The notes beneath the pieces are model-generated. The model did not search any database, had not been told where the DNA came from, and worked only from the letters and a program-made list of their open reading frames with translations. A program made the translations under genes and the position numbers. From a virus, in the IMG/VR virus record IMGVR_UViG_3300009505_000053, positions 1-29,194 of that record: a stretch of DNA of 29,194 bases; one strand, given 5' to 3'. Positions 12,220-27,515 of this stretch are shown piece by piece (position 1 is the stretch's first letter; every line of letters begins with the position of its first letter).

Positions 12220-13980
12220 ATGAAATTTCTAAACAATATAGAGGTTGGGTCTAGTCCTAACTTTACACTTCCTTTGGCCGATGGGTCTTCTAATCAGATT
12301 CTACAAACGAACGGGTCAGGAACTGTATCGTGGATTGATATACCTGCAGGAACGACAGACACAAACGATTTCGTAAGTGCTGCTGCGTTCAATACCTCTA
12401 CGGGTGTTATTTCATTGACAGTAGACAACCAAACTACTGTAACGGTAGATATTGATGGTAGGTATCTTACTTCGGAGACTCACAGTTCTCAGGGATACCT
12501 TACAGACACAGGCTCAGCAATCACAAACGTTCTAGCAAACTACAACGCGGCAGACACAATAGGTTGGGCAAACGAGTCTAATACCTTGAACTCAACCAAC
12601 TTCAGGCTAATGTCTGATGGCTCGCAACTATCTTTAGCTAATGACGATTGGGCGAACAGAAACACAGGCGGTGTATCTCCTAAATACTTTGTGCACATCG
12701 CTCCCGACGGAGCAGGCTCACCACGTTCTTCTGTATTAAATGACGCAGATGAGTTCTTTAGTGCTAAGATTGCACAGGACAATCTATACATGGCTATAAG
12801 AAATGCAAACAACCTAGCAGGAGACGAGGTTGGATTGATGTTCCGTTCAGACAATGACGACTCTACAATTAGAATAAAAGGTATTGCGGGTTCTGACTCG
12901 ACTATTGATGAAACATTTAGAATAGAGTCTGTAAACTCTTCATCAAACAGACACAGACTACATATAGTTAATTACGGTGACCAACATTTCAGACTAGCTC
13001 AGTCGAGCGCCGACCAACCGTTTATGTTCTACTTTGGTGACGGTACAGCTATGGGAAACTCTACTAACCCATTTACAACACTTGGCGTTAGAATAGATGC
13101 TAGCGCAATAGCTGTTGATGGTACAAACAATCCTAGTACACCTAACTATCGATTCCTAGATGATGGAGATACAGGTATGTTCCTAGCCTCTACGGGTGTT
13201 ACAGCATTCTCTAGTGGTGGAACTCAAGTTATGAGTATCCCTACAGGCACAGGTACTAACGGTCAAGTTCTTACAACAAACGGCTCAGGTACAGCTTCTT
13301 GGACTACGGTTTCGAGCGGTGGTGGATTAGTTACTAGTCTTACTACTACGGGTACTTCAGGCGTGGCCTCGCTAAGTGGTGGTGGTGTTCTAAACATTCC
13401 TAATTACGCAGATACAGATACAACATACAGCAACGGAGCGGGTCTAGATATAACAGGCACTACATTCAGCGTGTCTACAGACCTTAGAACAGATGTAGAT
13501 TACATAGGTTTTAACTCAGACAACTATATAGACATGTCTGCAGCTAACGTATTGAAGTTTATTGTAACAGGTAGTGAAGCATTCAGAATAGATACTAGTG
13601 GTAACATTCATGCAGCAAACGACGTTGTTGCATTCTCTACTACAATATCTGATGCTAGACTAAAAGAAGACATAGAGACCATTGAGAGCGCTTCTAAGAA
13701 GGTTTCTCAGCTTAGAGGCGTGGAATACACTTGGAAAAAAGGAGGCCGTAAGGGGCAGCGTGAGATAGGTCTAATCGCACAAGAGGTTGAAGAGGTAATC
13801 CCTAGCATTGTTAGAGAGCACCAATTACCATTGGTTGAAGGACTAGATGACGCTTCTGCATCTTACAAAACGGTAGACTACGAGAAAATAGTAGCACTTC
13901 TTATAGAATCAAACAAAGAACAGCAAGATATCATATCTCAACTAGAGGAGCGTATTATCGATATTGAAAATAGACTGTAA
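12220..13980 (+). CDS. Tail fibre with C-terminal Peptidase_S74 chaperone
   Basis: A 586-aa fibre. The N-terminus MKFLNNIEV matches the preceding fibre. A DFVSAAAFNTSTGVISL ... VDIDGRYL module (about residues 48-87) is homologous to its repeats. Residues about 472-586 form an intramolecular chaperone/autoprotease of the Peptidase_S74 family: SDARLKEDI gives the expected Ser-Lys dyad (S477, K482), followed by GVEYTWKK, IGLIAQEVEEVIP, YKTVDYEKIVALLIE and a C-terminal coiled coil. In this family the domain trimerises the fibre, then cleaves itself off before the serine. The upstream GNIHAANDVVAFS segment is the usual lead-in. Its stop overlaps the next ATG by one base (TAATG). Assignment of S74 is firm. 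Confidence 0.9.
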   Translation: MKFLNNIEVGSSPNFTLPLADGSSNQILQTNGSGTVSWIDIPAGTTDTNDFVSAAAFNTSTGVISLTVDNQTTVTVDIDGRYLTSETHSSQGYLTDTGSAITNVLANYNAADTIGWANESNTLNSTNFRLMSDGSQLSLANDDWANRNTGGVSPKYFVHIAPDGAGSPRSSVLNDADEFFSAKIAQDNLYMAIRNANNLAGDEVGLMFRSDNDDSTIRIKGIAGSDSTIDETFRIESVNSSSNRHRLHIVNYGDQHFRLAQSSADQPFMFYFGDGTAMGNSTNPFTTLGVRIDASAIAVDGTNNPSTPNYRFLDDGDTGMFLASTGVTAFSSGGTQVMSIPTGTGTNGQVLTTNGSGTASWTTVSSGGGLVTSLTTTGTSGVASLSGGGVLNIPNYADTDTTYSNGAGLDITGTTFSVSTDLRTDVDYIGFNSDNYIDMSAANVLKFIVTGSEAFRIDTSGNIHAANDVVAFSTTISDARLKEDIETIESASKKVSQLRGVEYTWKKGGRKGQREIGLIAQEVEEVIPSIVREHQLPLVEGLDDASASYKTVDYEKIVALLIESNKEQQDIISQLEERIIDIENRL

Positions 13981-15350: not shown

Positions 15351-15364
15351 ATAGTATTTTTGTG

Positions 15365-15372
15365 TATCTTTG
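15365..15372 (+). promoter_or_regulatory. Promoter -7 box TATCTTTG, near-leaderless
   Basis: TAnnTTTG box followed by CATCT and then the ATG at 15378, so the mRNA would start at or within a few bases of the codon. It drives the small-basic-protein operon. Confidence 0.72.
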
Positions 15373-15377
15373 CATCT

Positions 15378-15668
15378 ATGGATAACCGCATAAAGAACTT
15401 ACTCAAGAAACACAGGCTTGCAGGAGTCAATAAAGCTAAGCGTACGCCTAAGCATCCTAAGAAGTCACACATTGTTTTGGCTAAGGAGGGTACTACTGTA
15501 AAGCTAATTCGTTTCGGTGAGCAAGGTGCATCCACAGCAGGCAAACCTAAAGCAGGCGAGTCTGACCGTATGAAAAAGAAACGTGCTTCATTTAAAGCTC
15601 GTCATCAAAGAAATATAAAAAAGGGTAAGCTCTCTGCGGCTTATTGGGCAAATAAAGTAAAATGGTAA
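15378..15668 (+). CDS. Small basic conserved phage protein (DUF6321-like)
   Basis: A 96-aa very basic protein. The start is set at ATG 15378, just after the promoter box; an in-frame non-ATG codon at 15360 lies upstream of the promoter and cannot be in this transcript. Landmarks: TPKHPKKSHIVLAKEG (about 21-36), KLIRFGEQGASTAGK (about 40-54), then KKKRASFKARHQRN and AAYWANKVKW at the C-terminus. I recognise this pattern from small uncharacterised proteins of many phages and Bacteroidetes (remembered as DUF6321; not checked). The conserved R, H and W residues suggest nucleic-acid binding, but the function is unknown. It overlaps the next gene by 7 nt. Confidence 0.72.
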   Translation: MDNRIKNLLKKHRLAGVNKAKRTPKHPKKSHIVLAKEGTTVKLIRFGEQGASTAGKPKAGESDRMKKKRASFKARHQRNIKKGKLSAAYWANKVKW

Positions 15669-15997
15669 TTGATTCTGTATTCTCAGTTATAACAGCCTTG
15701 GTTGTTGGTATAACGTCTACAAAGGCGTTTGACTACTATTGGAAAGTCTATAAGGCTAAATCTGATACAGGTGCTAACGGAGCTCTAGTAGCTAAAGACG
15801 AGACTATACAATTACTACGCACACAACAAGACAGCTTACTAAAGGATTTGGAAGAATTAAGAGATATATATGTTGACCTCAAAATGGAGGTAGCTACATT
15901 GCGCTCTGAGAACAAAGCAATGCAAACCAAGTTAGTAGACCTAGAGAAAGCTAACTTCGAATTGAAAACAGTAAACGAAATACTAAAAAGAAAGTAA
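15662..15997 (+). CDS. N-terminally membrane-anchored coiled-coil protein (holin or spanin candidate)
   Basis: A 111-aa protein. Residues about 2-20 are a hydrophobic segment (VIDSVFSVITALVVGITST), followed by FDYYWKVYKAK and then a long coiled coil (about 43-110) rich in Leu, Glu, Lys and Asp. One N-terminal membrane helix plus a coiled coil fits an inner-membrane spanin or an unusual holin; the amidase lies 1.5 kb away on the opposite strand. It begins within the last codons of the preceding gene (7-nt overlap) and the next gene starts 1 nt after its stop, so it is translationally coupled in the basic-protein operon. The lysis role is inferred from topology only. Confidence 0.58.
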   Translation: MVIDSVFSVITALVVGITSTKAFDYYWKVYKAKSDTGANGALVAKDETIQLLRTQQDSLLKDLEELRDIYVDLKMEVATLRSENKAMQTKLVDLEKANFELKTVNEILKRK

Positions 15998-15998
15998 A

Positions 15999-16571
15999 AT
16001 GAAACTAAAGAAGAAAAGCGCGAAAGGCAAAAAAGCAATGGTCGCTACTATCAGAAAGTATAACGAAGGTGGAAAGACAAAGAAGCAAGCAAAAACAACA
16101 GAGGCAGCGCAGGATGACAAAGCTAGACGTGTTGAAGAAGGCTCTGTAATTCGCAAAAAGGATTATGACTTATCTACCACGTCAGGTCAAGAGGCATTCC
16201 TAAAAGACCAAGCTGCAGCTAGAGCTAACCGTCGTCAACAAAAAGCCGACCAATTAGACGCTACTAGAGCGGCCAATGCTACAGGTAATACTGAAGTTAA
16301 AAAGGAGACTAAAAAGGACAACAGAGAAACTAACCAAGACCGCGCTGACCGAACTATTGAGGACGCTAAGAAAGTATCCGAAGCAGACAAGAAAAAAGAT
16401 ACAGAGAATACTACGTTTGTAGTCGGTAATGGCGGAATCAAAGTAAAGAAGTCGACCACTACTAAAAAAGCGCAAACTACAGGCGAAAAAGCTAAGGCGA
16501 TAAAGGAAAAGAAAAAGAAGGCAATCGTTACAGGGAACAGAACTAAGAAAAAAGACTTGCTCAATGGCTAG
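15999..16571 (+). CDS. Lys-rich, probably disordered protein
   Basis: A 190-aa low-complexity protein dominated by Lys, Thr, Ala, Asp and Glu, with few hydrophobic residues. It opens MKLKKKSAKGKKAM and contains KYNEGGKTKKQ at about 21-31, a glycine-pair motif also seen in the 122-aa protein at 16821. The middle is rich in charged repeats (ADRTIEDAKKVSEADKKKD), with a single more ordered strand (TTFVVGNGGIKVKK). It overlaps the next gene by 8 nt. The composition suits a nucleic-acid-binding or packaged internal protein. I do not recognise a family. Confidence 0.6.
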   Translation: MKLKKKSAKGKKAMVATIRKYNEGGKTKKQAKTTEAAQDDKARRVEEGSVIRKKDYDLSTTSGQEAFLKDQAAARANRRQQKADQLDATRAANATGNTEVKKETKKDNRETNQDRADRTIEDAKKVSEADKKKDTENTTFVVGNGGIKVKKSTTTKKAQTTGEKAKAIKEKKKKAIVTGNRTKKKDLLNG

Positions 16572-16821
16572 TAGGTCTGCATTGTTCTATAGAGCTAACA
16601 AGAAGGCAAGAGACAAGAAGAAGAAGTACGACAAAGCGTACAACGGATTGAATCTCGCTAAGATAGCTAGTCGTATGCGTGCTCGCCGTAAACTCCAAAA
16701 GGGTGGACGAGTAAAGCCTAACGATGGTATGGATGTAGACCACATTGACGGTAACCCAATGAACAACTCTCCTAGCAACCTTCGTGTTGTTAAGAAGTCT
16801 ACTAACAGGGCCAAAAAGTAA
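16564..16821 (+). CDS. Small HNH-type endonuclease-like protein
   Basis: An 85-aa basic protein. The N-terminal ~50 residues are Arg/Lys-rich helices (RSALFYRANKKARDKKKK). Residues 55-83 hold DGMDVDHIDGNPMNNSPSNLR, with H60 and N67/N68 matching the HNH/HNH_3 beta-beta-alpha metal core. The position of the final His is taken by N81 in STNRAKK, so it is an H-N-N form. Many phages carry a near-identical small protein close to packaging or head genes; HNH proteins can assist terminase nicking. The ATG lies inside the previous gene's end (8-nt overlap) and the stop shares a base with the next ATG. Fold call is good; catalytic activity is uncertain. Confidence 0.75.
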   Translation: MASRSALFYRANKKARDKKKKYDKAYNGLNLAKIASRMRARRKLQKGGRVKPNDGMDVDHIDGNPMNNSPSNLRVVKKSTNRAKK

Positions 16822-17189
16822 TGGCTAAGAAGTTTAAGGCACATATGATGTATAAGGGTAAGGAGTCTGTCATGGCTAAGACTATGGCTGACCACTTACG
16901 TTTAAAGAAGCAAGGCTACGGGCACACAGCTCCTAAGTATGCTGAAGGCGGAATCATGCCTAACGTCAAGCCTGACAACAGAGAAGACTTAATAGTTAGA
17001 TATAGTAAAGGTGGGAAAGCTAAGAGTACTGTTAATTCAGCAGGTAATTATACTAAGCCTACTATGCGTAAGCGTTTGTTCAATCGCATCAAAGCAGGGA
17101 CTAAGGGCGGAAGAGCAGGACAATGGTCAGCTCGCAAGGCGCAACTCCTCGCAAAGCTATACAAGAAAAACGGAGGAGGATACCGATGA
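16821..17189 (+). CDS. Conserved small basic phage protein with YxxGG motifs
   Basis: A 122-aa basic protein. It shows KYAEGGIMPN (about 39-48) and RYSKGGKAKSTVN (about 60-72), followed by GNYTKPTMRKRLFNRIKAG and GGRAGQWSARKAQLLAK, ending KNGGGYR. The last ~60 residues form a pattern I recall from uncharacterised proteins in many marine phages; no function is known to me. It overlaps the HNH gene by 1 nt and the next gene by 4 nt (ATGA), so expression is coupled. The high positive charge and Gly-Lys motifs shared with the internal protein at 27536 suggest a virion or DNA-associated role. Confidence 0.65.
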   Translation: MAKKFKAHMMYKGKESVMAKTMADHLRLKKQGYGHTAPKYAEGGIMPNVKPDNREDLIVRYSKGGKAKSTVNSAGNYTKPTMRKRLFNRIKAGTKGGRAGQWSARKAQLLAKLYKKNGGGYR

Positions 17190-17425
17190 GTCTAAGTAAA
17201 TCACAAAAGAGTCTAAAGAAGTGGACTGCACAGAAGTGGAGAACCTCTAGCGGTAAGAAGTCTAACGGTAAGCGTAGGTATCTACCCGAGGCTGCTTGGA
17301 ACGCTCTTACAGCAGCTCAGAAGGCCGCTACGAACAGAGCGAAGGCAAAGGGTGATGGAAAAGGCAAACAGCATGTCAAACAACCTCGCAAGATTGCTGC
17401 CTTAGTTAGAAGATTTAGAAAATAA
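17186..17425 (+). CDS. Small basic protein (DUF5872-like)
   Basis: A 79-aa very basic protein. The start is set at ATG 17186 (4-nt ATGA overlap with the preceding stop, with GGAGGAGG 12 nt upstream); a longer in-frame opening from 17123 would lie inside the upstream gene. Landmarks: SLSKSQKSLKKWTAQKWRT, RRYLPEAAWNALT, and a C-terminal GKQHVKQPRKIAALVRRFRK. This resembles the small family I remember as DUF5872, found in phages and large viruses (not checked). Function unknown; DNA or RNA binding is plausible from charge. Last gene of its operon, ending at a bidirectional terminator. Confidence 0.7.
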   Translation: MSLSKSQKSLKKWTAQKWRTSSGKKSNGKRRYLPEAAWNALTAAQKAATNRAKAKGDGKGKQHVKQPRKIAALVRRFRK

Positions 17426-17460
17426 AAAAAGCCCTGCATTTCGCGGGGCTCTTTCTTTTA
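17423..17460. terminator. Bidirectional terminator at convergent junction
   Basis: An 8-bp stem (17430-17437 with 17443-17450, one T-G pair) around ATTTC, flanked by an A7 run on the left and CTTTCTTTT on the right. It therefore has a T-tract in both directions, serving the forward basic-protein operon and the reverse lysis operon. Confidence 0.85.
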
Positions 17461-17871
17461 ACGATAACGCGGGAACTCTTTCCCAACATCAAAACAAGGG
17501 CAAGACTTACTGCTTACCTCATTGTGTCCTATTACTTCAATCCCACCGAACACAACATCTAGAGATGCTATTAGTTTCTGCATGGCTTGCATTTGATTGG
17601 AAGTCCTAGTGTCTTTTGGTATTCTGTGGTCTGCATCCATTCCGCCTACGTAGACTACTCCGATGCTACCTTGATTGTGTCCTTTTGCGTGAGCTCCAAT
17701 CTTATCTAGTGGTCGGCCCGCTTCGATAGTTCCGTCAATCTTAATCAAGTAATGATATCCGATGTCTGACCATCCTTTTGCTTTATGCCAAGCTCTAATG
17801 TCCTCTACATCATGTTCACGTCCCTCGGGAGTGTAAGTTGTATGTAGTACTACTTTTCTTATTGGCCTCAT
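17458..17871 (-). CDS. N-acetylmuramoyl-L-alanine amidase endolysin (T7 lysozyme-like)
   Basis: Cleaves the amide bond between the glycan strand and stem peptide of peptidoglycan during lysis. A 137-aa Amidase_2 domain protein, close in length to T7 lysozyme (about 150 aa). Zinc ligands are H10 (VVLHTT), H116 (IGHNEV) and C124 (KSCPCFDV); the catalytic partners are Y39 (IGYHYLI) and K122. Spacing H116-K122-C124 equals T7 H122-K128-C130. No signal peptide is seen, so release would need a holin. It is the last gene of a reverse three-gene operon, overlapping the 49-aa gene by 4 nt (ATGA), and faces the forward operon across a shared terminator. Function is well supported. Confidence 0.92.
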   Translation of the reverse strand: MRPIRKVVLHTTYTPEGREHDVEDIRAWHKAKGWSDIGYHYLIKIDGTIEAGRPLDKIGAHAKGHNQGSIGVVYVGGMDADHRIPKDTRTSNQMQAMQKLIASLDVVFGGIEVIGHNEVSSKSCPCFDVGKEFPRYR

Positions 17872-18017
17872 ATTCTGTTACCTTTTAAGTGGTGGCGGAT
17901 TGCATAGTTGGTTGCTTTCCTGCGTTCTTTGTACTCTTCGAATGTTTCGCCTTCGAGTCTTGCGTTGCTCATAGTAGCATAACGTTGCTCTAGAGTTTCT
18001 TTGTCTGTTTCTTTCAT
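17868..18017 (-). CDS. 49-aa charged protein in the lysis operon
   Basis: A 49-codon reverse frame starting at ATG 18017 and ending TGA at 17868, joined by ATGA overlaps to both neighbours: its start overlaps the stop of the exported protein and its stop overlaps the start of the amidase. The peptide reads METDKET-like at the start (MKETDKETLEQRY), then GETFEEYKERRKATNYAIR and ends HHLKGNRI. It is helical and basic with no membrane segment. Similar short FEEYKxRRK..N proteins occur in phages as I recall, without known function. The double overlap is strong evidence of a real gene; a regulator or partner of the amidase is only a guess. Confidence 0.68.
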   Translation of the reverse strand: MKETDKETLEQRYATMSNARLEGETFEEYKERRKATNYAIRHHLKGNRI

Positions 18018-18352
18018 TCTTCAGTCCAAATTAAAAATTGGTATCCTACCTGACCTTCAGGGCTTATCTCGTGTATTGCTACCGTATCGTATGCTTCGTT
18101 AGTCATGTATATTGCATTCCATCCTTCTTCTACCTCTGTCCAAATAGAATCTGCATCCATTCCAAACTCGTTAAGCATTCTAGCTTGACCTTCAGTAACG
18201 TCGTGTGCCCAAATGTTGAATACAGTTTCCCATACAGAGTCTGTAGTTAATACGCACGCATCGTCTAACGATATACTATTCTTTATATCACCTTTACTCT
18301 CAATAAAACAAATACAGATTAGAAATGTAATAATACTTAATAAACGTAACAT
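18014..18352 (-). CDS. Exported or membrane-anchored small protein in lysis operon
   Basis: A 112-aa protein. I chose the ATG at 18352, giving MLRLLSIITFLICICFIESKGD, a typical short signal or anchor sequence; a longer frame opens at 18397 but would start upstream of the promoter box. After about residue 20 the protein is acidic (DDACVLTTDSVWETVF, WAHDVTEGQARMLNEFGMDADSIWTEVEEGW) and ends YQFLIWTEE. Cys13 and Cys15 could be lipidated but do not form a clean lipobox. It leads the operon that ends with the amidase, so a spanin-like, anti-holin or superinfection-exclusion role is possible. I do not recognise a family. Confidence 0.58.
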   Translation of the reverse strand: MLRLLSIITFLICICFIESKGDIKNSISLDDACVLTTDSVWETVFNIWAHDVTEGQARMLNEFGMDADSIWTEVEEGWNAIYMTNEAYDTVAIHEISPEGQVGYQFLIWTEE

Positions 18353-18375
18353 AGTATATAATAATAGATTAGTAA

Positions 18376-18383
18376 CAAATATA
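18376..18383 (-). promoter_or_regulatory. Reverse promoter -7 box TATATTTG for the lysis operon
   Basis: On the reverse strand, TATATTTG lies 23 nt before the ATG at 18352 in a very AT-rich gap. It is the only reverse-strand box found at a gene start. It lacks the following CA of most forward boxes (GTT instead), so it may be weaker or differently timed. Confidence 0.55.
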
Positions 18384-18444
18384 ATATAAGGAAACATCTT
18401 GTATTATGCAAGTAGGTCTTGTATATTTATTAAATAATAATTAC

Positions 18445-18476: not shown

Positions 18477-19697
18477 ATGGCTAACGAATTTGAAAACTTG
18501 GCTGAATCACTAGGAATCAACTTAAGCAGCACTCCACCGAGTGAAGCATTAAACGAAGAGCCTACTGAGTCGCCAATAGCGGAAGCAACAGAAGAAGTGG
18601 TAGAGTCTACCGAAGAGCAACCTACTGAGGAGGCTGTTGAACAGACTGAAGTTCTTAACAATGATGAAACACAATCTACGGAAGTAGAGGATACGACAGA
18701 AGAGTCTGTTGATAATCCTGAATTGGATGCAGAGGTTGATGCAATCGAAGCTGAAGAGGAAACTACAGAAGAAGATAACATCTCTGACGAGGAGTACGAG
18801 GTTATGTTAGTACAGGCAGTGGGCGAAATGCTCGGCTTAGAAGGCGTAGACAAGGAGCAATTGTTAGAGAGACTAAATACAGAGCAGACACCTGCACCTG
18901 TAGAACTTGACCCTGCTGTCAAGGTTATTGCTGACTTCGTCGCTGAGACGGGTCGTAGTGTTGAAGAGTGGTTCGCTTATCAAAGCCTCAACCCATCTGA
19001 AATGGATGACGTGAGCGTGATGAGAAACAACTTACAACGTCAATACCCTGACTTGTCTAATGAAGACGCTGACTTGTTACTTGAAAATAAGTATAAGTTA
19101 GATACAGATTTAAACACAGAGCAAGACGCCCGTTTGGGTTCTCTACAGTTGAGGATGGATGCGCAGAATGCTCGGAAAGAGCTCGAGTCTGTACGTTCTA
19201 ATTACTTAGCTCCCGTAGCTAAAGCAGAACCTGCACAAGCTCCTGTTCAAGAAGAGATTGAATCACCTATAACCTCTGAGTGGATTTCCGCCATGAGTAA
19301 TGTAGCTGATGATATGGAAGCACTAGAATTTAATGTAGGTAAAGACCAATCATTTGCTTTCGGTATCTCAGACACTTACAAGGCTGAATTGAAACAAAGT
19401 AACGCTAAGATGGACGAGTACTTCGACCAATACGTTAGTGACGCAGGAGATTGGGACTTTGAGAAATTAAACGTTCACCGTACTATACTCGACAATATCG
19501 AGAACATTGTAGATGCTGCATTCAAACAAGGTTTGAGCCAAGGCACTTCGAATGTGGTAAAACAGGCAGTGAACCCGAGTGATGTTAATCCATCTAGCTC
19601 AAGTGCACCAAGCTCAGCTTCATCTGAGGATAAAGTGAGACAACAGATTTTAAACGCCTTGCAGGGTGGCGACGATACTCTGCGAATGAAATTTTAA
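18477..19697 (+). CDS. Putative scaffolding (capsid assembly) protein
   Basis: A 406-aa acidic protein directly ahead of the major capsid gene. Residues about 25-110 are almost entirely Glu, Thr, Val, Asp and Ser (low complexity, disordered). The middle is helical (YEVMLVQAVGEMLGLEGVD; ADFVAETGRSVEEWFAYQS at about 150-168). A Pro/Gln/Ala linker sits near 250-260, and the C-terminus has a Ser-rich stretch and ILNALQGGDDTLRMKF. An acidic N-terminus, helical core and short ordered C-terminal end are typical of scaffolds that bind the capsid inner surface. It shares a promoter and transcript with the capsid gene (26-nt gap). Sequence identity of scaffolds is low, so the call relies on context. 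Confidence 0.75.
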   Translation: MANEFENLAESLGINLSSTPPSEALNEEPTESPIAEATEEVVESTEEQPTEEAVEQTEVLNNDETQSTEVEDTTEESVDNPELDAEVDAIEAEEETTEEDNISDEEYEVMLVQAVGEMLGLEGVDKEQLLERLNTEQTPAPVELDPAVKVIADFVAETGRSVEEWFAYQSLNPSEMDDVSVMRNNLQRQYPDLSNEDADLLLENKYKLDTDLNTEQDARLGSLQLRMDAQNARKELESVRSNYLAPVAKAEPAQAPVQEEIESPITSEWISAMSNVADDMEALEFNVGKDQSFAFGISDTYKAELKQSNAKMDEYFDQYVSDAGDWDFEKLNVHRTILDNIENIVDAAFKQGLSQGTSNVVKQAVNPSDVNPSSSSAPSSASSEDKVRQQILNALQGGDDTLRMKF

Positions 19698-19723: not shown

Positions 19724-21028
19724 ATGGCTTTTAATTCTCCGAGCGACTTTAACCCCGCTCTTATTAAGAACTTGGATATGTCCAAGTACGTTGACCTCGG
19801 TTCTTACATCAACGAGGTAAACAAAGAAGACAACCGTGAGGCTTTAATCAAGACTTATGGAAAGCAAGGTATCACAGGATTCCTTTCTATGGTAGGTGCT
19901 GTAAAAGCTCAAGCTGTTGCTGACGAAGTAACATATTGGGAAGAAGCACGTCTACATCAATTGCAAGTTGGTACTGCATCTGCAGGACTTACTGTAACTG
20001 CTGCTAACGCTGCTGCTATCGTAGTTCGTGAGAGCGACGTAGTATTGAGCGGTTCTGACCGTTTCTTTGTATCTGACATCACTGCATTGGTTATCACTTT
20101 GGTAGCTCTTGATGGTTCTGCTGTCTTGGCTAATGGTGCTGTTTCTTTATCGGTTATCGGTAACTTGTATGCTCAAGGTTCTGACCAACCAAATGGTGGT
20201 TTCGAAGCTAACGTTGTTAAGCGTACGAACCCGTTCATGATTATGAAAGAGGCTTACAAAGTAAGTGGTTCTCAGGCTACCAACATCGGTTGGATTAACT
20301 TGGGTAACGGTGACTACCGTTGGTACATGAAAGGTGAAGCTGATACACGTCAGCGTTTCATGGACAAGCGTGAGATGATGTTATTGTTAGGCGAGAAAAC
20401 TTCTGCTGTTACAGGTGTTAGCGGTTCTGAAGGTTACTTCGCTGCTATCGAAGACCGTGGAATCGTTGCTTCAGGTACTGATGCTGATTTCGCTTCTTTG
20501 GCTGACGTTGATGCTATCATCGTTGAGTTGGACAAGCAAGGTGGTGCTGCTGAGTACGCTATGTACGTTGACCGCTCTACTGACTTAGCTCTTGACGATA
20601 TGATTGCAGGTGGTGGTGCTTCTTTGAGCGCAGCTACTAGTGGTGTTGCAGGACAGTTCGGTGCATTTAACAATGACAAGGACATGGCTGTAGAATTAGG
20701 ATTCCGTACATTCGGACGTGGTGGGTATACTTTCCACAAGCATGACTTCAAACTGTTGAACGACCCTACTCTATTGAGTGGTGCTGACTTCGCAGGTGTT
20801 ATGATTCCTATGGCTAAAGTAGCTGATGCTAAGACAGGCGACAAAGCTCCTGCTCTTGAAATCAATTACAAGGCTACTAACGGATACTCTCGTGAAATGG
20901 AGCATTGGATGACAGGTTCTATCTTAGGTGCGTCTAACGCAACTGAGGATAGCGTTCAGTTCAACTACCGTTCTGAGTGTAACCTTATCACTCGTGCCGC
21001 TAACCGTCACGTATTGTTGAAGAAGTAA
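19724..21028 (+). CDS. Major capsid protein (HK97-fold)
   Basis: Forms the icosahedral shell. The 434-aa length and the scaffold-capsid order are typical. The N-terminal helix region (SKYVDLGSYINEVNKEDN, about 20-37) is followed by an E-loop-like segment, a beta-rich insertion (about 95-155), then TNPFMIMKEAYKVSGSQATN (about 168-187) and GWINLGNGDYRWYMKGEADTR, which resemble the P-domain entry in crAss-like capsid proteins as I recall. KRE and a long helix (FMDKREMMLLLGEKT) match the spine. The C-terminus reads YNYR-like (FNYRSECNLITRAANRH). No leader promoter or Shine-Dalgarno motif lies in front; the start follows ACTAAAACAAA. A terminator closes the unit. Confidence 0.87.
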   Translation: MAFNSPSDFNPALIKNLDMSKYVDLGSYINEVNKEDNREALIKTYGKQGITGFLSMVGAVKAQAVADEVTYWEEARLHQLQVGTASAGLTVTAANAAAIVVRESDVVLSGSDRFFVSDITALVITLVALDGSAVLANGAVSLSVIGNLYAQGSDQPNGGFEANVVKRTNPFMIMKEAYKVSGSQATNIGWINLGNGDYRWYMKGEADTRQRFMDKREMMLLLGEKTSAVTGVSGSEGYFAAIEDRGIVASGTDADFASLADVDAIIVELDKQGGAAEYAMYVDRSTDLALDDMIAGGGASLSAATSGVAGQFGAFNNDKDMAVELGFRTFGRGGYTFHKHDFKLLNDPTLLSGADFAGVMIPMAKVADAKTGDKAPALEINYKATNGYSREMEHWMTGSILGASNATEDSVQFNYRSECNLITRAANRHVLLKK

Positions 21029-21049
21029 TTCTTAACATATATTGAATTG

Positions 21050-21085
21050 AGAGCCTCTACATTTTGTAGGGGCTTTCTTTTTTAT
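21050..21085 (+). terminator. Terminator after capsid gene
   Basis: An 11-bp stem (21050-21060 with 21066-21076, including two G-T pairs) around ATTTT, followed by CTTTTTT. It closes the scaffold-capsid unit and lies 12 nt ahead of the next promoter box. Confidence 0.82.
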
Positions 21086-21096
21086 AAAACATTTTG

Positions 21097-21104
21097 TATA
21101 TTTG
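21097..21104 (+). promoter_or_regulatory. Promoter -7 box TATATTTG after capsid gene
   Basis: TAnnTTTG box, but followed by TAC rather than CA, the one exception among the forward set. It precedes the ATG at 21130 by 25 nt of A/T only sequence apart from one C. Confidence 0.68.
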
Positions 21105-21129
21105 TACTTTAATTATATTTATTTAAATT

Positions 21130-21942
21130 ATGTCTGACACAGTAAAGCGCACTACAAGTGCAAAGAAAAAGCCTGCAGCTCCTGCAGCAGCAAAGAAAGC
21201 GGCATCTAAGCGCCCCGCAAAGAAAGCAGCGCCAAAAGCAACAGTATTTACTATCACGAAGGGTGGCGGAATCTATTACAAGATTCGTCAGAAGTCTGTC
21301 TTAGTGTTTGATGAAGAAAACGGGTACAACCGTGAGATTCGTTACGCACGTGGAGAGCGTTCTATCTTTGTAGATGAGCAATCAGCTTCAGCTAAGCGTG
21401 AGGTTATTGTATTCCGTGATAAAAACTTATTAGTTAATCCTAATCAACCCGAGCTTCTTAGCTACCTACGTCAACACCCCGACAATGTCGCAAACGGTGG
21501 ACGTGTGTTTAACGAGGTTAACAATCAATCAACAGCAGAGGAAGATGTAGAAAACGAGTTCTTGGTACACGATGCTATCAGCTTGATTCGTTCAGCTTCA
21601 ATAGATGAGTTAATGCCTATGGTATTGTCTTACGGTATTGATGGAACAATGTCTTCTATGGAGATTAAGAAAGAATTATTGAAGTTTGCTAAAGGAAACC
21701 CTAAGAACTTTATGGAGTTGTACGACAGCCCTGTGGTACAGATTAAAGCTGACGTATTAACTGCTATTGACTTCCAAATTCTAGTAGCTAAGGCTGATGG
21801 AATGTATTGGGGAGATAACAGCGCATTGATTTGTCCTACTCCTATGGGTCAAAGCTCTGTCGAAGTGTTTACTCGCTTCTTAATGACAGACCGAGGTAAC
21901 AGCGTACGCGACGAGTTGCAACGTCAGATTGACAGTCTATAG
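21130..21942 (+). CDS. Head-module protein with histone H1-like N-terminal tail
   Basis: A 270-aa protein in a one-gene transcription unit between capsid and ring genes. Residues about 6-40 are Lys/Ala/Pro repeats (AKKKPAAPAAAKKAASK, PAKKAAPKA) like the C-terminal tail of histone H1 or bacterial H1-like proteins, suggesting DNA or polyanion binding. The rest is globular: YYKIRQKSVLVFDEENGYNR, IRYARGERSIFVDEQ, EVIVFRDKNLLVNPNQPELL, a helical centre and RFLMTDRGNSVRDELQRQI at the end. The tail is attached to a protein placed where head-completion or auxiliary capsid proteins lie. I do not recognise the globular part. It could be a packaged DNA-binding head protein or a capsid auxiliary protein. 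Confidence 0.62.
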   Translation: MSDTVKRTTSAKKKPAAPAAAKKAASKRPAKKAAPKATVFTITKGGGIYYKIRQKSVLVFDEENGYNREIRYARGERSIFVDEQSASAKREVIVFRDKNLLVNPNQPELLSYLRQHPDNVANGGRVFNEVNNQSTAEEDVENEFLVHDAISLIRSASIDELMPMVLSYGIDGTMSSMEIKKELLKFAKGNPKNFMELYDSPVVQIKADVLTAIDFQILVAKADGMYWGDNSALICPTPMGQSSVEVFTRFLMTDRGNSVRDELQRQIDSL

Positions 21943-21967: not shown

Positions 21968-22002
21968 GGAGGGCTGCACATTGTGCGGCTCTTCTTTTTT
22001 TT
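21968..22002 (+). terminator. Terminator overlapping the next promoter region
   Basis: A stem of 21968-21979 with 21983-21994 (three G-T pairs) around a 3-nt loop, followed by T8. The next -7 box begins three bases after the T-run. Confidence 0.82.
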
Positions 22003-22004
22003 CG

Positions 22005-22012
22005 TATATTTG
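22005..22012 (+). promoter_or_regulatory. Promoter -7 box TATATTTG for ring and muzzle genes
   Basis: TAnnTTTG followed by CATTATAA, 21 nt before the ATG at 22034. TTG at 21981-21983 is 21 nt upstream, but lies in the loop/right arm of the terminator stem. Confidence 0.72.
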
Positions 22013-22033
22013 CATTATAATAATACAAGCAAG

Positions 22034-23588: not shown

Positions 23589-26500
23589 ATGGGCATCAAT
23601 ACCCTTACACCTCGCTATCTTAACCTAGATAACGATAGCCGCATTGTCGCTCCTCAAGAGATGATAGATGCTTTAAACATACGTGTTTCTGCTAATCAAG
23701 ACGGCAACCAAGGTGTGATTAAAAATATAAAAGGTAGCACAGCCGCTCCTTATGATGTAACTCCATTCGTAGGCGAGAACCAAGTAGTAGGTACTTACGA
23801 ACATGAGGGAACTAACAGACTATTTGTTTTTGTATGGAACTCTAACGGAAGTCATTCTATATACAAGATAGGTCAAGGCGAGTCATCGTTTACATTAATT
23901 ATACGTTCTACTCAATTACTTATGGCTAATAGCCCGTTGCACATAGATGCAATGATGGTTAGTGGTAAGTTATTTTTATACTTTACAGATGGCGTCAATG
24001 AACCACAGAAGGTAAATGTAGATTCGGGCATAGCTGTAAACTCTTACCCTTCAGACAGCGAGAGCATGGTCATGAAGAAAGCGCCCGATGCACCACAGGT
24101 AACTTGGTATAATGACACTTCTAGAACCACTAACGAGCTTTACGGAAAGTCGTTTCAGTTTGCTGTTCAGTACGTTTATCGTGATGGAGAAGTTTCTGCA
24201 ATAGGTGAATACTCTGCTAATACCGTGGGACTCAACACATTGAGTGCTACAGACCCTAGCGAGACTTACAAGAATCAATATAACAAGATAACCCTAGAGA
24301 TAGGGACAGGTACTTTAGGCTCGGGATTTGGTACTTCTATACTAGAGGTAAGATTATTCTTCAGAGACGTAAGCACAAACACAATGTTCTACATTGGTGA
24401 ATACACGTCTACAGAGTTGTTTAATGGAGTTGACTTTTTTAACGATGAGTCATACTCTGTTGTTTCAGACTCTGAGTTTAACAAGATTCAAGATGCTGTG
24501 CCGAAGGTTGCACAAGCTCAGACTATATCGTCAAACAGACTGTTTTACGGTAACTATAAAGAAGGCTTTGATAAGGCTAACGTATCAGCAGTTCTCTCTC
24601 CTGTGTATGGTGACAAGCCTGAAAACAACTTATTAGAAGTAGAGGCTAGTATACCTGCGGCAGATATAACCGCCAAGGTTGCTTTGAATACAGAGGAAAT
24701 GCAAGGCCTGCTAAACGGCACAGATGGTATTCCAACATTAGTTGCTTTTAAGTTTAACAGAGGAACTATACATAGCTTTGAGCAAAGAGCTATGACTTTA
24801 ACAGAACCAAGTGGTGGTAACTTCAAGGTGTTTACCCTTGCTGAGTCTGAGGCTAATCAGTCTAACAGACAAACATCACTGAGCGTTCAAGGAACAGAGT
24901 ACTCTCATCAAGTTACCGTGGGTGCTACATCATCTTACTCAGCTTACAACACAGCATTAGCTACCTCTATTAACGGGACTTCTATTGTTTGTGACTTATA
25001 TGCAGGTAGCGCATGGTTTAACGACGGAAGTAATTACTCTTGGAAGGCTAATTTCGGAGACGGAACTGTAACCCTTACTGTTAATGCTGTTGCTACTACT
25101 ACAGGTGTGGATATTACTTTTACACCTGCTAGCTTTATCGTAAGCGGAACAAGAGCTACAGGTAAGGCTAATACCATCTTGGTTACTCAAACTATAATCA
25201 GAAACTATAACTCTACATTGTCGGGCGTTTTTGGAACTACCGACGCTGATAACATTTGGAGTATATTTAGTCTAATCTCTAATCAGAGCTCCGCAAGTAC
25301 TACTGATAGTGAAAGAACTTTTAAAAACGGAGACAACCATTCTTTTGGAGTTGTATTCGAAGACTCTTTAGGTAGAGCGACAGGAGTGTACGAAATAGGT
25401 TCTTTAGCCGTTTCTCAACTTGCAGATAGAACAGAAACTCAAAAAGGCCGAGTCTCAGTAGAGTCAACGCTAACAGCTACGGGCTTAGACTCTAGCTTGT
25501 TAAGATACTTTTATGTATACAATGGCGGAAGCGTAGTCGAAGACTACACTCAGTATTCTGCTGCAGAAGCATTTGTAATAGATAACTCTAAGGTTGACGA
25601 AGCTGCAGACAGCTCTATATTAGTAGCCCTGAGAACACTTCAGGGAACTCCTGATTCTTATTGTGCGACTGAACAAATAGACTACACCTTTACCGAGGGT
25701 GATGAGCTTAGAATACTTTCTTACATAGATGAAGATGGTGTTAGGTTATATCCTAATAACTTAGTATTCGAGGTAGAAGCCTTAAGAAGCGTTACTGAAG
25801 ACGAAGACATACTTCTAGATGTCGGCACTATGCATGACGAAAGAAGATACGGAGATTTCTTAGTTCTAAAGAACGAGAATCAAGCGGACTTTGGTAGAAC
25901 TGAAATAATAGGCGGAACAGACTTATGGAAGCGCCACGTTGTTTTTGAGATACTCACTAAGAAAAAAGGTAACTCTACAAAGATATACAGAGCAGTTTCG
26001 GGTAAGTACGACGTAACGGCAATTGGAACAACCGACAGTATAACTGAAGGTAACGCTTGGTACAAAAGAAGAAACGTATTAATGCCTACGGGTCTTACTT
26101 CGGGTGGGAACGCTTGGGCTTTGACTCCTGAGTCTATGTACCTAGAGTCTAATCAATACTACGATAGAGATAGAAACTCTGTTGGTCAGCTTGGTGGAAA
26201 GCCTTACGCTGTTATAAATAACGAAAAAGAGCAAGAGAGAATATCTAGTGTGACTTACTCTGACGCACAGTTAGCAGACAGCGCACAAAACAACCTCTCT
26301 TCTTTCAATAATAGTTTAGCCAACTTCGCAGACTACGAGATGAACTACGGTGGTATCTACGGTTTAGTAGACTCTTCTGATAGTATAACTCTTCTTCAGT
26401 CTGACAAAGTATCTAGAGTACCTACAAGCCGTAACATATTGTCTACAGGCTCGGGTTCTCAGTTTGTTACTCAGTCTACAGACATACTAGGGCTACAACA

Positions 26501-27515
26501 ACATTACCCTGTCAACGCAGGGATTAACGACGATAGAACAGCGTTCTTGAAGTCTAATGGGGTTATATACATAGTAGATGTAACTAGAGCTAAGATAGTT
26601 TCTTTCTCTAACCAAGGAGTAAAGATTCTTTCCGATAATGGAGTATCCTCTTATGTTGAGTCTACTTGTTCTTCTATGTTGGCTGATGCTGATGGTTATT
26701 TCGTTTCGATTGGACAAGATAGATTGAACAATGAAATCATATTCTCTTTACAGAATATGCCTTTAACTAATACTAAATCATTAATTCTCTCAGTAGGACT
26801 AGATAAGTTTACTACATTTGTTAATTATACTAGTAGTTACTACGGTGCGCTAGGTTTAAGAAGTTTTGGTTTCAGACATGCCGATGGCGGTGCTGTACCT
26901 GTAGGACAAGAGCTAGGTGTTAATGCTGTGCATGGTAACTTCTTTGGCACTCAATATGACGCTACAATTACCTCTGTGTTCAATTCTAACCCTACATCAA
27001 GAAAGGTGTTCAATAGCATTAGCGTAGACGCTACTCAGAGCCCTTCTGCTGAAGTATCTACTATAGACCAAGATGTTGCTATACCTGCGGGGGCTTTTGC
27101 TCTTAAAGAGGGTGTGTACTACTCGAATGTTCCTAGAGAAGAAGGTACTTCTCAATTTGTAGCATTAGGTGAGGTTGCTTCAGAAGCTGACCCAAGTATT
27201 ACATTCATAAACAAAGTAAACAGACTACCCTTTAGATTGGGTGGAGATGTATATAAACTAGTAGGTTCTACATTGACCGACCTATCAGTAACCGTAAGCG
27301 GGGTCTCTAGTGCTAGAGTCCTAGAGGTTACAAACGGTGGCGCTGTAACGGCGGGGGATGTCTTAGCTGTAAAAGGAGAGGCCGTTGATGGAGACCCATT
27401 GAGAGGTGCTTATGCTGAGGTTAAAGTTGTATTTAACACAACAAGTGGTGTGGAGTTATTCTCTGTCGCTGCTCAGACTTCGGAAAGTGGGTTACACAAC
27501 AATAGTCAACAATAA
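23589..27515 (+). CDS. Tail muzzle / stabilisation protein
   Basis: A 1308-aa beta-rich protein that probably forms the end of the short tail (the muzzle of crAss-like phages, called stabilisation protein in many annotations). Residues about 128-143 read LFLYFTDGVNEPQKVN and about 187-209 KSFQFAVQYVYRDGEVSAI, matching the N-terminal hallmark of that family as I recall. Residues about 977-1014 (AGINDDRTAFLKSNG, IYIVDVTRAKIVSFS, GVKILSDNG) resemble the beta-propeller-like core segment in which a phage protein checks DNA-exit closure. Length is typical (about 1,200-1,500). It follows the two ring genes in one transcript. The last 60 residues are Val/Thr/Gly-rich. No frameshift is seen. Family call is strong on pattern and context. 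Confidence 0.78.
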   Translation: MGINTLTPRYLNLDNDSRIVAPQEMIDALNIRVSANQDGNQGVIKNIKGSTAAPYDVTPFVGENQVVGTYEHEGTNRLFVFVWNSNGSHSIYKIGQGESSFTLIIRSTQLLMANSPLHIDAMMVSGKLFLYFTDGVNEPQKVNVDSGIAVNSYPSDSESMVMKKAPDAPQVTWYNDTSRTTNELYGKSFQFAVQYVYRDGEVSAIGEYSANTVGLNTLSATDPSETYKNQYNKITLEIGTGTLGSGFGTSILEVRLFFRDVSTNTMFYIGEYTSTELFNGVDFFNDESYSVVSDSEFNKIQDAVPKVAQAQTISSNRLFYGNYKEGFDKANVSAVLSPVYGDKPENNLLEVEASIPAADITAKVALNTEEMQGLLNGTDGIPTLVAFKFNRGTIHSFEQRAMTLTEPSGGNFKVFTLAESEANQSNRQTSLSVQGTEYSHQVTVGATSSYSAYNTALATSINGTSIVCDLYAGSAWFNDGSNYSWKANFGDGTVTLTVNAVATTTGVDITFTPASFIVSGTRATGKANTILVTQTIIRNYNSTLSGVFGTTDADNIWSIFSLISNQSSASTTDSERTFKNGDNHSFGVVFEDSLGRATGVYEIGSLAVSQLADRTETQKGRVSVESTLTATGLDSSLLRYFYVYNGGSVVEDYTQYSAAEAFVIDNSKVDEAADSSILVALRTLQGTPDSYCATEQIDYTFTEGDELRILSYIDEDGVRLYPNNLVFEVEALRSVTEDEDILLDVGTMHDERRYGDFLVLKNENQADFGRTEIIGGTDLWKRHVVFEILTKKKGNSTKIYRAVSGKYDVTAIGTTDSITEGNAWYKRRNVLMPTGLTSGGNAWALTPESMYLESNQYYDRDRNSVGQLGGKPYAVINNEKEQERISSVTYSDAQLADSAQNNLSSFNNSLANFADYEMNYGGIYGLVDSSDSITLLQSDKVSRVPTSRNILSTGSGSQFVTQSTDILGLQQHYPVNAGINDDRTAFLKSNGVIYIVDVTRAKIVSFSNQGVKILSDNGVSSYVESTCSSMLADADGYFVSIGQDRLNNEIIFSLQNMPLTNTKSLILSVGLDKFTTFVNYTSSYYGALGLRSFGFRHADGGAVPVGQELGVNAVHGNFFGTQYDATITSVFNSNPTSRKVFNSISVDATQSPSAEVSTIDQDVAIPAGAFALKEGVYYSNVPREEGTSQFVALGEVASEADPSITFINKVNRLPFRLGGDVYKLVGSTLTDLSVTVSGVSSARVLEVTNGGAVTAGDVLAVKGEAVDGDPLRGAYAEVKVVFNTTSGVELFSVAAQTSESGLHNNSQQ

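Follow-up and report, generated by a model that had tools for sequence, protein, structure and literature searches.

What does the gene directly behind the major capsid gene of crAss-like phages encode, and what does the histone H1-like tail on its product contribute? Human gut viromes are dominated by crAss-like phages, and the product of this gene has no place in the main text of the published crAss001 virion structure. We addressed the question in one viral sequence of 29,194 nucleotides (the window), in which the studied gene is a confirmed open reading frame of 270 codons, beginning with ATG, at positions 21,130 to 21,942 of the plus strand. The window also encodes TerL, a portal, a capsid protein, two adaptor-like ring proteins, and a crassvirus muzzle protein, the last recognized by its crAss-related domains PF25731 and PF25729 in 23,589 to 27,515. 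The nearest annotated relatives are Cellulophaga phi38:1 and phi40:1 (Pervagoviridae), the Flavobacterium elemo phages, and Maribacter Panino, which are marine or freshwater podoviruses of Bacteroidota. The features of the locus are collected in Table 1.

Table 1. Features of the studied locus, with positions in the window
Feature	Position	Strand	Evidence or remark
Gene before the capsid gene	18477..19697	+	Strongly acidic N terminus; net charge -68 over 406 aa; no family match
Major capsid protein	19724..21028	+	phrog_13704, virion structural protein, E 4e-119
Terminator-like hairpin between capsid gene and studied gene	21049..21077	+	-20.6 kcal/mol, z -6.2
TATATTTGT, Bacteroidota-type -7 box (TAnnTTTG) upstream of studied gene	21097..21105	+	
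Disordered K/A/P-rich N-terminal tail, residues 1-37	21130..21240	+	Net charge +11; composition test, dN/dS, low pLDDT
N-terminal beta domain, residues 38-130 (predicted)	21241..21519	+	Conserved RYxxxExSIFxDEQ; separate model m5dd965d25635, pLDDT 90
SAP-like helix-loop-helix module, residues 131-199 (predicted)	21520..21726	+	Structure matches, Z 5-7; conservation
RecA C-terminal-domain-like module, residues 200-270 (predicted)	21727..21939	+	Structure; Pfam RecA_C in orthologues; hhalign
Terminator-like hairpin 3' of studied gene	21968..21994	+	-20.8 kcal/mol, z -5.5
TATATTTGC, TAnnTTTG promoter box of the next (ring/adaptor, muzzle) unit	22005..22013	+	

The studied protein matches phrog_34748 (E = 2e-43). 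We built a family profile (A2) from 89 nonredundant relatives and surveyed loci anchored on the capsid gene. In 169 of the 170 loci with a capsid gene, the family gene lies next behind it, usually 55 to 118 bases downstream, and the post-capsid position is also found in crAss001, phi14:2, and cr1_1. The profile detects crAss001 gp33 (E = 1.6e-6), the sole ORF of its region above threshold. Judged by profile match and position, the studied gene belongs to "gene 75," the post-capsid gene family of crAss-like phages, as does crAss001 gp33; gp33 is equated with gene 75 on the basis of gene order, in the numbering of Yutin et al. Gene 75 is among the few genes reported to be common to all crAss-like phages yet uncharacterized (PMC7886860). 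The family itself was already known, and what is added here is the domain assignment and the branch-specific basic tail. The GenBank label of gp33, "double-stranded DNA binding domain," matches no Pfam entry that we found and stands as an annotation.

The post-capsid position is shared by phi38:1 and phi40:1 gp094 and by phi18:3 gp105 (phrog_34748, phrog_16922), which are homologous to the studied protein over its whole length; unlike it, they have a short basic tail or none, and gp105 has a C-terminal extension. crAss001 gp33 likewise shares the position and a C-terminal SAP-like plus RecA_C region with the studied protein, but it has no K/A/P tail, and its N-terminal part is longer, mixed or acidic, and not alignable. 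In six loci (L062, L068, L091, L092, L130, and L058), 1.1 to 2.3 kb is inserted between the capsid and post-capsid genes, and in cr1_1 (L174) a GIY-YIG endonuclease gene lies there. In one further locus, translation table 11 puts two stop codons into the frame of the gut crAss orthologue (L181:2179-2928), perhaps a sign of stop-codon recoding.

The earlier note placed a Lys/Ala/Pro tail like that of histone H1 at about residues 6 to 40. The tail is real, but it ends at about residue 37. It contains 10 Lys, 12 Ala, and 4 Pro, and these three amino acids fill 26 of the 34 positions from residue 4 to residue 37, against 17% expected (binomial p = 7e-14). Among the 25 proteins predicted in the window, no other 34-residue stretch is as rich in K/A/P, the runner-up having 17. 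Comparison of the window with close relatives gives a dN/dS of about 0.15 to 0.36 in the tail and 0.05 to 0.1 in the domain; synonymous changes are plentiful in the tail codons, and insertions and deletions preserve the K/A/P make-up. By this codon comparison the tail is translated and constrained, tolerating substitutions and indels while its make-up stays. AlphaFold gives residues 1 to 30 a pLDDT of 50 to 64. The H1 likeness is compositional. The tail shares K/A/P composition and presumed disorder with histone H1 C-terminal tails and bacterial H1-like proteins, but it is N-terminal, about 37 residues long, and lineage specific, and a Pfam search found no H1 domain in the protein. An RGRP core with basic flanks (AT-hook) is absent from the window tail; some relatives have RGRP.

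Among the homologues, about half carry a basic tail, so the tail is not uniformly lacking in them, and the remainder have a stub of 7 to 20 residues. Long N termini are usual in the window's branch (median, 39 residues), whereas those of the distant branch have about 10 residues. The 77 long tails include 74 with a net positive charge and none with a negative one. A GRP motif, resembling the AT-hook core, occurs in 12 of the 77 (0.6 by shuffling) and changed at least five times on the tree; SPKK-like and [KR]P[K]-like motifs in the tails showed no excess over shuffles. At the sequence level, the change between K/A/P and GRP tails resembles the exchange of one DNA-affine tail for another. Because the make-up shifts in this way among relatives, exact H1 likeness is limited to the closest of them. 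Nor can the core function of the protein lie in the tail, which many relatives lack or have only as a short stretch. The gene before the capsid gene probably is a scaffold gene or holds the "gene 77" position, as judged from position only; across relatives, the more acidic its product, the more basic the tail, chiefly as a difference between branches.

We then turn to the folded part, which the earlier note had called an unrecognized globular domain. In the AlphaFold model of the studied protein (pLDDT 88, pTM 0.63), the disordered tail leads into a beta domain, after which come a helical module, which is SAP-like, and a small alpha/beta module with a RecA C-terminal fold; the boundaries are given in Table 1. 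The description as unrecognized holds for the beta domain, which, when predicted alone, reached a Z of only 2.6 in PDB fold matches and has no known fold; it carries many of the best-conserved residues of the family, in RYxxxExSIFxDEQ and in HPxN. Residues 131 to 270 can largely be placed. Searches of Pfam and PDB sequences with the window family alone gave no credible identity, and Foldseek found nothing under an E value of 0.001 for the whole model in the PDB.

The helical module matches the SAP domains of PIAS, 3'hExo, and FAN1 as well as T4 endonuclease VII. Its predicted helix arrangement and the conserved basic residues of its second helix resemble those of SAP/helix-extension-helix domains such as those of PIAS, FAN1, and the T4 endonuclease VII C terminus, and a basic residue is present at positions 154, 180, and 188 (R154, K180, and K188) in 93 to 100% of the members. 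However, no sequence match to SAP domains was found, and structural matches of this strength can simply mirror a common helix arrangement.

The C-terminal module shares its fold with the RecA C-terminal domain (PF21096): 31 RecA matches have a Z of 7.6 to 8.5 over 58 residues, the best with an rmsd of 1.9. A Z of 8 would be insufficient alone, and we assign the fold because the gut crAss orthologues (set A5) give independent sequence support. Pfam RecA_C was found in 13 of 35 of them (best E = 1e-7), hhalign links the studied family to them at an E value of 4.8e-9, and a search with their profile hits Deinococcus RecA at an E value of 4e-4, the lower values there stemming from fused RecA repeats. 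Several orthologues are named "protein RecA" or "double-stranded DNA binding domain" in GenBank. The window protein's C terminus had no direct profile match to RecA, and the window-family profile gave no alignment with RecA. Unlike RecA, the protein lacks the ATPase core.

Lysines of the RecA C-terminal domain bind double-stranded DNA (PMC4666392 and references therein). In an alignment by eye, only one of four such lysines (K286) appears to have a counterpart in the studied protein, most of those of Escherichia coli RecA seemingly being lost. In the window the net charge is -7 for the SAP-like module and -3 for the RecA-like module (family medians, -5 and -1). This acidity, together with the apparent loss of most of these lysines, is the main weakness of a DNA role. 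The predicted SAP-like and RecA C-terminal-like folds, the net-positive tails, and the AT-hook-like motifs in some of them nevertheless make such a role plausible.

The gene had also been proposed to have its own promoter and terminator and a dose set apart from that of the capsid. In the window, a TAnnTTTG box follows each of the flanking hairpin-plus-T terminators. The hairpin that separates the capsid gene from the studied gene is kept by 53 of 56 near and 40 of 43 far relatives (93 of 99 loci), and a promoter box lies 3' of the studied gene in 91 of 97 loci. The hairpin is thus nearly universal in the gap between the two genes, but the promoter box is not: a box in this gap occurs in 19 of 56 near relatives (3 expected) and in 1 of 43 far relatives. 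Consensus sigma-70 promoters, which are of the wrong type for this phylum, showed no excess over shuffles. The conserved hairpin after the capsid gene and the pattern of promoter boxes suggest that the dose is set apart from that of the capsid; since the capsid transcript would largely end before the studied gene, it is probably lower. The source would probably be terminator leakage in most relatives, with an own promoter in addition in the window's branch.

The evidence on virion content comes from MS/MS marks in the GenBank records of phi40:1, phi18:3, and phi14:2, which are old annotations. In these three records the capsid protein and tail-module proteins are marked as detected, including phi40:1 gp093, a homologue of the window capsid protein, whereas the homologue of the studied protein is unmarked in all three. 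Likewise, the main text of the papers on crAss001 structure and proteomics does not name gp33. Packaging in the virion is not supported by these data, which count against it, although a protein present in a few copies could have been missed by mass spectrometry.

Tentatively, we favor a role outside the virion: present at low dose, the protein would contact DNA or the head while heads are assembled and DNA is packaged, and its basic tail, specific to this branch, would increase its affinity for DNA. The analysis itself shows the family, its position, the domains, the tail statistics, and the terminators; DNA binding, the time of action, and the partner are inferred. The gene product would be made late and below the dose of the capsid protein. 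It would act inside the cell while heads assemble and take up DNA, without being a major virion component. The SAP-like and RecA C-terminal-like modules would contact double-stranded DNA, while the conserved beta domain may dock onto a component of the head or of the packaging machinery. The disordered basic tail of this branch would provide extra, nonspecific DNA affinity. A wider, rather doubtful version is that the universal post-capsid gene encodes a dedicated DNA-to-head coupling factor, in which the RecA C-terminal and SAP-like modules are joined to beta docking and the basic tails, whether K/A/P or AT-hook-like, tune the grip on DNA in each branch. If true, this would add a previously undescribed kind of packaging factor. 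The domain assignment makes this signature gene concretely testable, by binding to double-stranded DNA, procapsids, or terminase and by the effect of the tail on affinity, for which the branch-specific tails are natural variants.

The strongest rival, unlikely as we judge it, is a head-assembly chaperone or coscaffold without a DNA role, whose basic tail pairs with the acidic N terminus of the pre-capsid protein. The most basic tails do accompany the most acidic upstream proteins (raw rho = -0.68, 117 loci), the globular modules are net acidic, and a scaffold-like protein would go unseen in virions, as is the case in the three phages. However, the raw correlation is mostly one between two deep branches: in the far branch alone rho is 0.08, and phylogenetic contrasts give r = -0.26 (p = 0.15), or r = -0.24 (p = 0.015) when restricted to the first 110 residues. 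Because the correlation is weak after this correction, we keep the coupling as a rival only; it also leaves the RecA-like and SAP-like folds unexplained.

Those folds, which are of DNA-binding type, would suit a regulator of late transcription or DNA processing, for example, a partner of a phage RNA polymerase or a small-terminase-like recognizer of the packaging site, and so would the single-gene unit and the non-virion status indicated by the MS/MS marks. This possibility is quite unlikely, as the fixed adjacency to the capsid gene suggests a head partner and the small terminase of crAss-like phages has been proposed to be another gene, beside terL (PMC7886860).

Similarly unlikely is the suggestion of the earlier note, a packaged histone-like or capsid-lining protein whose tail condenses or neutralizes DNA inside the head, for although the tail has the K/A/P composition of H1 tails and the gene sits in the head module, the protein is unmarked in virions in which the capsid protein is marked, gp33 goes unnamed in the main text of the crAss001 papers, many relatives lack the tail, and the terminator ahead of the gene speaks against a near-capsid dose.

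Five small ORFs in 15,360 to 17,425 (starting at 15,360, 15,999, 16,564, 16,821, and 17,123) have net charges of +19 to +27; overall, they are more basic than the studied protein and may better suit a search for packaged basic proteins. The ORF at 16,564 encodes an HNH protein, and that at 17,123 overlaps its neighbor. An amidase gene (17,458 to 17,871) and a gene for a small protein (18,014 to 18,397) lie on the minus strand inside the otherwise plus-strand structural block. Finally, the C terminus of the protein encoded at 12,220 to 13,980 resembles, by reading only, the intramolecular chaperone of endosialidase (SDARLKEDI...GLIAQEVEEV).
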